A stretch of DNA of 39,548 bases from an uncultured Clostridia bacterium (GTDB lineage: Bacteria > Bacillota > Clostridia > Oscillospirales > Acutalibacteraceae), in assembly GCA_947176035.1 (NCBI GenBank), contig CAMWPJ010000005.1, positions 1 to 39,548 of the forward strand, read 5' to 3'. The first letter of the stretch is position 1. Each line of letters starts with the position of its first letter. A program made the position numbers and the translations under genes. Positions 14,212 to 17,050 of the stretch are shown in pieces. Below the pieces are notes generated by a model. That model was not told the DNA's origin. It made no database searches and saw only the letters and a list, made by a program, of their open reading frames with translations.

Positions 14212-15774
<1,563 letters not shown>

Positions 15775-15795: not shown

Positions 15796-16170
15796 ATGGA
15801 ACTTTCATCATATTTCAAAAGCATTATTAATCAGGACAGAAGTGCTGTTGTAATCTGTGATTTACAGCACATAATTATTTATATGAATCCGGCAGCTATA
15901 TCAAGATACAGCAAAAGCGGCGGTGCACAGCTGATAGGCAAAAGCCTTTTAGCCTGCCACAATGCAAAATCAGAAGAAATAATAAATCAGGTGATTTCCT
16001 GGTTTGAAAAAAGCAAGGATAATAATATTATATATACTTTCCGTAATGAAAAAGAAAACAAGGATGTATATATGGTTGCATTAAGGGATGATGATGGTGC
16101 ACTTATAGGCTACTATGAAAAGCATGAGTACCGTAGTGCAGAAACAATGAAATTATATGATTTTGAATAA
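15796..16170 (+). CDS. Stand-alone PAS-domain protein
   Basis: The 124-residue product is little more than one PAS domain, beginning with a short helix and 'SAVVICDLQHIIIYMNPAAISRY'. That matches the PAS core strand-loop-helix pattern. It continues with 'LIGKSLLACHN' and ends in the sheet 'IYTFRNEKENKDVYMVALRDDDGALIGYYE'. No output domain is attached, so it would bind a ligand or partner and signal through another protein. AAAGGAG precedes the ATG. Its promoter is divergent from gdhA, but no functional link is shown. Cys at about residue 55 in LLACHN might bind a cofactor; that is inference. Confidence 0.8.
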   Translation: MELSSYFKSIINQDRSAVVICDLQHIIIYMNPAAISRYSKSGGAQLIGKSLLACHNAKSEEIINQVISWFEKSKDNNIIYTFRNEKENKDVYMVALRDDDGALIGYYEKHEYRSAETMKLYDFE

Positions 16171-16207
16171 AAAGCGGTGAATATCCTTGGACCAGCTTAA
16201 AGCATAG

Positions 16208-16236
16208 TTGACATAACAATATCTATATGATAAAAT
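16208..16236 (+). promoter_or_regulatory. Promoter of the pnuC leader RNA
   Basis: -35 TTGACA (16208-16213), 17-bp spacer, and extended -10 TGATAAAAT ending at 16236. Transcription would start near 16243, just before the structured leader. Confidence 0.82.
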
Positions 16237-16242
16237 CGCAAA

Positions 16243-16340
16243 AAGAATATTGTACTGCCACCGGGTAGTAATGAAAGCAAAAGCATTCAGTTGCACATCG
16301 TTAGGTCTTAGAAGATGTGTAATCCGAATGCTTTTTTATT
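16243..16340 (+). ncRNA. Riboswitch-like leader RNA upstream of the pnuC-type gene
   Basis: The predicted leader starts near 16243. It has a hairpin ACTGCC (16254-16259) with GGTAGT (16264-16269). A second possible hairpin is TGAAAGC (16272-16278) with GCATTCA (16283-16289), with one A-A mismatch. The same GCATTC can instead pair with GAATGC (16326-16331), closing over an inner stem CACATC/GATGTG (16294-16319) and followed by TTTTTT. The two pairings are mutually exclusive, the classic antiterminator/terminator switch. A NAD-related ligand would fit the downstream transporter. I do not recognise the aptamer with confidence; the NAD+-II (pnuC) class should be compared. Confidence 0.65.
16279..16338 (+). 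terminator. Conditional terminator in the pnuC leader
   Basis: The outer stem is AAAAGCATTC (16279-16288) with GAATGCTTTT (16326-16335). The inner stem is CACATC (16294-16299) with GATGTG (16314-16319), and a T-run ends the structure 17 nt before the pnuC start. It would abort transcription unless GCATTC is captured by the upstream TGAAAGC. Confidence 0.75.
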
Positions 16341-16354
16341 TGGAGGAATATTAT

Positions 16355-17050
16355 ATGAAATTTTTAAAATCCTTTAAACGTTTAACGAAATTCGAGTTTG
16401 TATTGTGGTTTTTATCTGTGTCTGCAATAGCTATATCCTTTTTGTTTGGCACTCATAAAGATATAATTACAATTATCGCATCTCTTATAGGTGTTACAGC
16501 ACTTATTTTTGTTGCAAAAGGTGATGTGTTTGGACAGATACTTACTGTTGTGTTCAGTGTTTTTTATGCCATAATTTCATTCAGATTCAGCTATTACGGT
16601 GAAATGATAACCTATCTTGGTATGACTGCACCGATTGCGGTAATGTCAGTTATCACATGGCTTAAAAACCCTTATGAAAAGGGCGAAAATGAAGTGAAAA
16701 TAGCAAATCTGACAAAGAAAAAAATTATTATTTTGATATTGCTTACTATATTTGTGACGTTTATATTTTATTTTATATTAAAATATTTCAATAATGCGAA
16801 TTTATTTATGAGCACAGTGTCAATTGCGACAAGCTTTTCAGCCTCTGTATTAATGCTTTTGCGTTCGCCGTATTACGCTGTTGCTTACGCCTGCAATGAT
16901 GTTGTGCTGATTGTTCTTTGGGTAATGGCTGCAATGCAGGATATAGCCTTTTTATCGATGATAATATGCTTTGTAATATTTTTTGTTAATGATTTGTATG
17001 GCTTCTTCAATTGGAGACGGATGATGAAAAGGCAGAAAGATAAACTATAA
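16355..17050 (+). CDS. pnuC: PnuC-family nicotinamide riboside (or related vitamin) transporter
   Basis: PnuC proteins move nicotinamide riboside, and relatives move thiamine or riboflavin, across the membrane by facilitated diffusion coupled to intracellular phosphorylation. The 231-residue product is strongly hydrophobic with about seven membrane helices. It ends with the family-like 'FFVNDLYGFFNWRRMMKRQ' after 'YACNDVVLIVLWVMA'. I chose ATG 16355 because TGGAGGAA lies upstream; the open frame happens to extend back through the leader. The substrate is not proven. No TPP element is seen, which slightly favours the nicotinamide type. The gene is convergent with the metallophosphoesterase, only one base apart. 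Confidence 0.82.
   Translation: MKFLKSFKRLTKFEFVLWFLSVSAIAISFLFGTHKDIITIIASLIGVTALIFVAKGDVFGQILTVVFSVFYAIISFRFSYYGEMITYLGMTAPIAVMSVITWLKNPYEKGENEVKIANLTKKKIIILILLTIFVTFIFYFILKYFNNANLFMSTVSIATSFSASVLMLLRSPYYAVAYACNDVVLIVLWVMAAMQDIAFLSMIICFVIFFVNDLYGFFNWRRMMKRQKDKL

Follow-up and report, generated by a model that had tools for sequence, protein, structure and literature searches.

The leader of a pnuC-family gene from an uncultured Clostridia bacterium is very probably a guanidine-IV riboswitch

RESULTS

The stretch of DNA analysed here (the window; 39,548 nt of contig CAMWPJ010000005.1, assembly GCA_947176035.1) carries a pnuC-family gene at 16355–17050, which begins with an ATG at 16355, encodes 231 amino acids and is preceded by the ribosome-binding site GGAGG (16342–16346). 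Upstream lies a leader with a sigma-70-type promoter of its own at 16208–16236, in which 11 of the 12 consensus letters are present (-35 TTGACA, 16208–16213; 17-nt spacer; TG; -10 TAAAAT, 16231–16236). The first structured element of the leader RNA is hairpin P1, UACUGCC-ACCG-GGUAGUA (16253–16270; 7 bp, with a folding energy of -7.7 kcal/mol), defined from aligned leaders and folding, whose loop letters ACC (16260–16262) form the 5′ half of a kissing pair. A linker strand follows (16272–16278), which can pair as an antiterminator with 16283–16289, as indicated by folding and by covariation in relatives; 16283–16289 is also the 5′ arm of the lower terminator stem, and is thus common to terminator and antiterminator. 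The upper stem of hairpin P2 (16293–16320, pairing 16293–16299 with 16314–16320) closes the loop GUUAGGUCUUAGAA (16300–16313), in which GGU (16304–16306) kisses the ACC of P1. The leader ends with the 3′ arm of the terminator, GAAUGC (16326–16331), and a U-run (16332–16337). All of these features are on the plus strand. The minimum free energy of 16240–16355 is -31.8, compared to a shuffle mean of -19.6 (z = -4.0), and is better than that of all 200 dinucleotide shuffles.

A preliminary description of this locus had proposed a promoter firing into a compact RNA that ends in a U-tailed terminator 17 nt before pnuC, and indeed we find every one of these elements where it had been placed, as we do the hairpin at 16254–16269 and the segments TGAAAGC (16272), GCATTCA (16283) and GAATGC (16326). 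Its account of the terminator was right in that GCATTC pairs with GAATGC, but it overlooked the stem of 16293–16299 with 16314–16320 and the conserved 14-nt loop above it, which is the heart of the element. The terminator is the entire 16283–16331 hairpin (-18.0 kcal/mol by folding), followed by six U. A simple terminator scan of the window did not pick it up; that scan allows only loops of 3–8 nt, and the leader loop has 14. In the window, the proposed pairing between the first two segments has one A-A mismatch among its 7 positions (6 pairs, -3.0 kcal/mol), but it is often perfect in relatives and covaries there. The broader proposal, of a transcription attenuator of riboswitch type that precedes a PnuC-family gene and sets a terminator against a competing pairing, is supported.

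Directly upstream of the leader is a gene for a small PAS-domain protein (15796–16170, plus strand). On the minus strand, a perfect 12/12 promoter (TTGACA, 17-nt spacer, TATAAT, with TG; 15672–15644) faces a large ORF at 14212–15672 that looks, by eye, like glutamate dehydrogenase.

We examined conservation of the leader in 110 pnuC loci, made up of the 30 best of 51 matching genomes among 200 family genomes (the window's own included) and the best 80 of at least 580 from public contigs. Both core patterns, for P1 and for loop 2, occur upstream of pnuC in 90 of these 110 best-matching loci, which yield 84 distinct motif strings, some loci being duplicated between the two collections. Four loci have the P1 pattern only, two with near-consensus loops (L002, L061) and two with insertions (L042, L092). 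The remaining 16 have neither pattern; among them, L028 is truncated by a contig end, and the pattern missed a variant motif in L102. An Rfam scan of 17 of these 20 loci without the full motif gave no match. In the two leaders with insertions (L042, between 1787 and 1960; L092, between 444 and 599), inserts of about 140–170 nt break the loop after AGGU(C); the one in L042 is MITE-like, with terminal inverted repeats that are clear by eye. Five other pnuC leaders (L049, L090, L043, L070 and L094) keep a terminator-like or half sequence and have lost P1, the aptamer loop or both; these are decayed copies, assembly breaks or variants.

The structure covaries among relatives. After 16 minus-strand loci and leaders with spacings outside 37–51 were dropped, 62 distinct leaders were left, of which 49 were aligned. 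The structure including the kissing loop is paired in 98.8% of the cells of this alignment, and both-sided changes, which the preliminary description had proposed to look for, are observed at 14 of the 22 pairs and in 105 cells (shuffle means 8.0 and 21.4). None of 500 shuffles came up to any of the five measures used, and pairing fell to 29–41% when partners were slid out of register. Since the patterns used to select the leaders include the P1 and loop-2 cores, the core letters are conserved partly by construction, and it is the stems and the kissing pair that carry the evidence. The segment 16254–16289, on whose conservation in the leaders of pnuC homologues the preliminary description had staked its reading, is conserved. 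A sigma-70-like site (at least 9 of 12 letters) is found within 80 nt upstream in 66 of 85 leaders, compared to 25% of letter shuffles, and in 41 of those 66 it ends ∼12–19 nt before the first hairpin.

The leader at 16253–16337 is very probably a guanidine-IV riboswitch and a transcriptional ON switch for pnuC. We base this identification on architecture, gene contexts and the positions published for validated members, which were compared by description rather than by direct alignment. The guanidine-IV riboswitch, known also as GGAM-1 or the mepA motif, was described by Lenkeit in 2020 (PMC7736828) and reportedly by Salvail in 2020. Its plan, according to the accessible parts of the published accounts, consists of two hairpins and a loop–loop pseudoknot, with one of the loops inside a terminator (PMC7736828, PMC12186494, PMC11611296). 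Likewise, we observe two hairpins in the window leader, the 3′ one serving as intrinsic terminator and bearing a conserved loop. In the 135 sequences parsed, which cover all gene contexts (hits above 35 bits; 7 further sequences unparsed), one kissing pair is A-U in 106, G-C in 22, G-U in 6 and A-C in 1. The selecting patterns let A/G and U/C vary independently at these positions, and thus this pairing was not forced by selection. The remaining two kissing pairs are invariant in the 49 aligned leaders.

The positions that matter in published members have counterparts in the window. The Clostridium botulinum RNA is described as having kissing pairs A29-U72 and C30-G71, whose G71 and U72 mutations weakened kissing, and a conserved G77 (PMC11611296, accessible text); by spacing, these match A16260-U16306, C16261-G16305 and G16311. 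The double mutant A29G-U72C restored kissing while C30G-G71C did not (PMC11611296, same portion), and the natural A-U to G-C exchange in relatives sits at the pair equivalent to A29-U72. In Lactococcus lactis, mutation of G66, U67 or G72 is reported to abolish the guanidine response (PMC7736828, accessible text), and these positions fall by spacing on G16305, U16306 and G16311; conservation of these three among the leaders is not independent evidence, since the loop core is part of the selecting pattern. Validated members bind guanidine with reported KD values of 64–210 µM (PMC7736828 and PMC11611296, accessible parts).

To the two hairpins, loop–loop pseudoknot, terminator and loop letters shared with guanidine-IV can be added the SMR/SugE, MATE and PnuC contexts and an ON-type platform. 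The pnuC-linked leaders differ in that they often add a linker hairpin pairing with the 5′ terminator arm, of which the accessible parts of the published accounts make no mention. By analogy with the other members in the literature, guanidine would be the ligand and ON the direction of control, and the likely ligand is guanidine in place of NAD. The preliminary description had also allowed for a new riboswitch class; the window RNA instead fits a known one. The class and its association with PnuC are already in print; what the window adds is one new member.

A covariance model (R1), built from pnuC leaders only, was run on whole genomes. In the window's genome, the window leader scores 81.7 bits and the next match 16.9, and this search found no second guanidine-IV copy above noise. 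Among 200 genomes of the family, 74 have R1 sites, as do 23 of 398 from the phylum; a few of these sites are weak. We examined the downstream gene for 61 of 64 matches (a duplicate locus and two matches on the opposite strand were set aside), clustering the proteins with BLASTP and running Pfam on representatives. The largest group of downstream genes observed (22 of 61) encodes proteins mostly of 430–457 amino acids, the representative of which is MatE by Pfam. Five hits precede an SMR cluster, in which all four proteins scanned were Multi_Drug_Res and one scanned with NCBIfam was closest to SugE, below the cut-off; three precede PnuC. A further 18 precede some other gene or none that could be named, among them one DUF1989 protein (weakly like urea-amidolyase-associated proteins, below the cut-off) and two radical-SAM proteins. 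The loop-core pattern is found again in all three of the pnuC, SMR and MATE contexts, each of which also shows minor variants. These contexts, PnuC included, fit those in print for guanidine-IV, which count sugE, PnuC and MATE among them (PMC7736828, accessible text).

The remaining 13 of the 61 hits precede a cluster of about 165 amino acids assigned to PPOX and related to Nim proteins below the cut-off. This frequent context, seen for example at L153 and L191, involves proteins that are pyridoxamine-phosphate-oxidase-like, the relation being to NimABCDEF.

Within the family, 41 of 200 genomes have a window-type PnuC, and the RNA lies directly upstream of it in 38 of these 41 (places compared by eye); two others have no upstream site and one is cut by a contig end. 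No second riboswitch copy was seen in the 38 RNA-bearing genomes under strict filters.

Rfam is silent on this RNA. At the gathering threshold, cmscan of the window matched only a tRNA, and with E values up to 5 the region 16200–16400 gave 7 matches, all under their gathering scores; the covariance search that the preliminary description had suggested for classifying the leader therefore matched it to no class. A control with Rfam 15 on 10 loci (9 of them R1 hits, 5 of these SMR-linked) also gave no match. Because SMR-linked copies are silent too, this silence is no argument against guanidine-IV. The Rfam copy used does not report the leader's class, and automatic annotation can thus miss it.

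Folding of the leader points to how such a switch could work. The minimum-free-energy structure without the 3′ arm contains P1, the linker hairpin and upper P2, while the full leader folds into the terminator. Transcription would start a few nucleotides after 16236, and P1, a weak linker hairpin (16272–16289) and the upper P2 stem, presenting the conserved loop, would fold in that order. With guanidinium bound, the P1 loop would kiss the P2 loop through ACC and GGU, and the linker could hold the 5′ arm (16283–16289); the lower terminator stem would then be unable to close, and RNA polymerase would continue into pnuC. If guanidinium were absent, GCAUUC and GAAUGC would pair and transcription would end at the U-run. 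ON is the direction published for the class, and the anatomy suggests it too, with the kissing loops opposing completion of the terminator stem.

The antiterminator pairing is real but modest. The mean length of the helix between linker and 5′ arm is 4.68 in 85 leaders; shuffled letters give 3.33, and swapped linkers 4.25, at most 4.42. A linker helix of at least 5 bp is found in 56 of 87 pnuC-linked leaders and 5 of 45 in other gene contexts, a comparison in which the longer pnuC linkers favour longer helices.

The window protein has the PnuC fold, and belongs to a clade without the WxxW motif in which D182 and D213 are invariant. WxxW is described as the substrate-binding motif of nicotinamide-riboside (NR) PnuC (PMC7162841, accessible text); the window protein has A175 and Y178 in its place, and all 116 rows of the clade have A or G at position 175 and Y or F at position 178. 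In a comparison set of five NadR-linked PnuCs, W is found at 175 in four (Y in L213) and at 178 in three (Y in L220 and L221). Compared to the Neisseria mucosa PnuC (PDB 4QTN), the window protein has AxxY for WxxW, a clade-specific invariant D213 and other changes. The clade is separate from the NR-type group in a tree of 70 rows (a clade sample, motif-less clade members and remoter PnuCs) that carries long-branch warnings.

NR imported by PnuC is reported to be trapped by NadR (PMC7221760, accessible text). We found no NadR beyond fragments in the 41 family genomes with window-type PnuC; the window's genome (96.6% complete) has only a 37-position fragment, in a search confined to NadR among NR kinases. 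Few genomes of the family have NadR (among 200, two near-complete matches and one partial, none over the strict cut-off), and its absence alone is thus weak evidence. The window's genome does have the quinolinate synthase NadA, and therefore some part, at least, of the de novo pathway to NAD. Neither an SMR protein nor a guanidine-I riboswitch was found in the window's genome, and the 41 family genomes gave no strong SMR match. An SMR match just over the Pfam cut-off lies in a 291-aa frame of one of these 41 (G132) and a weaker one in another (G023), in which protein length suggests another family.

DISCUSSION

The closest competitor to guanidine-IV is its reported sister motif Gd4v, which has the same architecture and shows poor or no binding of guanidine (PMC9788692, accessible text). 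On this account, the pnuC-linked subset would be a Gd4v-like variant that senses a related, non-guanidine compound transported by its PnuC. Gd4v exists and is described as gut-enriched (PMC9788692, same portion), many of the relatives that we fetched are gut metagenome genomes by their titles, and the pnuC-linked platform does differ from the rest in its linker helices. The overall fold and many loop letters are also alike, by the accessible text of PMC9788692. However, Gd4v is characterized there by an extra hairpin in the terminator loop (D2), one missing G in the compared subset (D1) and a complete absence before sugE. The 14-nt loop 2 of the window has no insertion, so the D2 hairpin is not present. 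As for D1, compared by text and not by the consensus figure that places it, the window has G at all three G positions mutated in the accessible part of PMC7736828, where the match to G62 assumes a 1-nt difference in loop length. Moreover, R1 hits precede SMR genes, a context never found for Gd4v in the accessible text of PMC9788692, and the same loop-core pattern is shared by pnuC-, SMR- and MATE-linked RNAs. With no extra hairpin and G at those three positions, we file the window RNA as guanidine-IV and leave the variant a small chance.

Two further observations touch on the same loop. The inserts in L042 and L092 occupy the loop where Gd4v RNAs reportedly bear their extra hairpin, and one MATE-linked copy (L200:2474–2572, minus strand) has, by eye, an apparent extra hairpin in loop 2 as described for Gd4v.

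We consider it very improbable that the leader works without a small-molecule ligand, as a plain attenuator or one controlled by a protein. A terminator and an alternative pairing alone would look alike, and relatives such as L090 and L049 keep a hairpin and lose the aptamer loop. However, simple attenuation has no need of conserved unpaired loop letters, or of a kissing pair that covaries across gene families.

The preliminary description suggested an NAD-related ligand, perhaps a divergent NAD+-II riboswitch controlling NR uptake, and this is now the least credible reading, with next to no chance of being right, since the architecture is that of guanidine-IV and relatives precede SMR and MATE genes. 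The likeness consists of the PnuC annotation of the downstream gene: NAD+-II, too, lies before pnuC genes, in streptococci (PMC7749635, accessible text). That motif is described as having a possible pseudoknot with the ribosome-binding site and as a likely OFF switch (PMC7749635 and PMC8632094, accessible parts), whereas the window RNA has terminator control and a PnuC of another clade, outside the NR-type group and without WxxW. The presence of NadA, and of no NadR beyond a fragment, in the window's genome also argues against this reading. The lack of any Rfam match for the leader points the same way if Rfam 15 includes an NAD+-II model.

The PnuC behind this leader is annotated as a vitamin B3 importer but may well move guanidine. 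By analogy with SMR/SugE, the window PnuC is a plausible candidate guanidine transporter, with movement most likely outward, and this is the least certain part of our account. The guess that guanidine-IV-linked PnuCs export guanidine is already in print (PMC7736828, accessible text). In the literature on PnuC with guanidine, taken mostly from outside subscription papers, no test of PnuC as a guanidine transporter stood out, and we did not meet the protein-side argument there. What is added here is that these PnuCs form one clade, which has lost WxxW, has a clade-specific invariant Asp, has no NadR beyond fragments in the 41 sampled family genomes and shows, under strict filters, no second riboswitch copy in the 38 of them that carry the RNA. 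This support from the protein side makes a specific transporter claim testable.

The full proposal, to which we give equal weight for and against, is that the PnuCs behind guanidine-IV riboswitches are a separate subfamily that moves guanidinium or a close relative, not NR, and that replaces the SMR/SugE and MATE exporters in gut Clostridia; the acidic pair of D182 and D213, together with E83, could take the place of the aromatic NR site and link the movement to protons. Since the literature describes PnuCs as carriers for facilitated diffusion (PMC7221760, accessible text), driving a cation out against the membrane potential would need some coupling, for which the invariant acidic residues are candidates. 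We know of no such coupling in the PnuC family. If the proposal is true, it would give the Pnu fold a new substrate class and reveal a fresh source of misannotation.

Other riboswitches also occur close to pnuC. Outside the guanidine-IV clade, Rfam identifies THF riboswitches near pnuC genes at L217:560–673 (plus strand) and L224:318–416 (minus strand), the former on the pnuC strand about 650 nt upstream of the gene.
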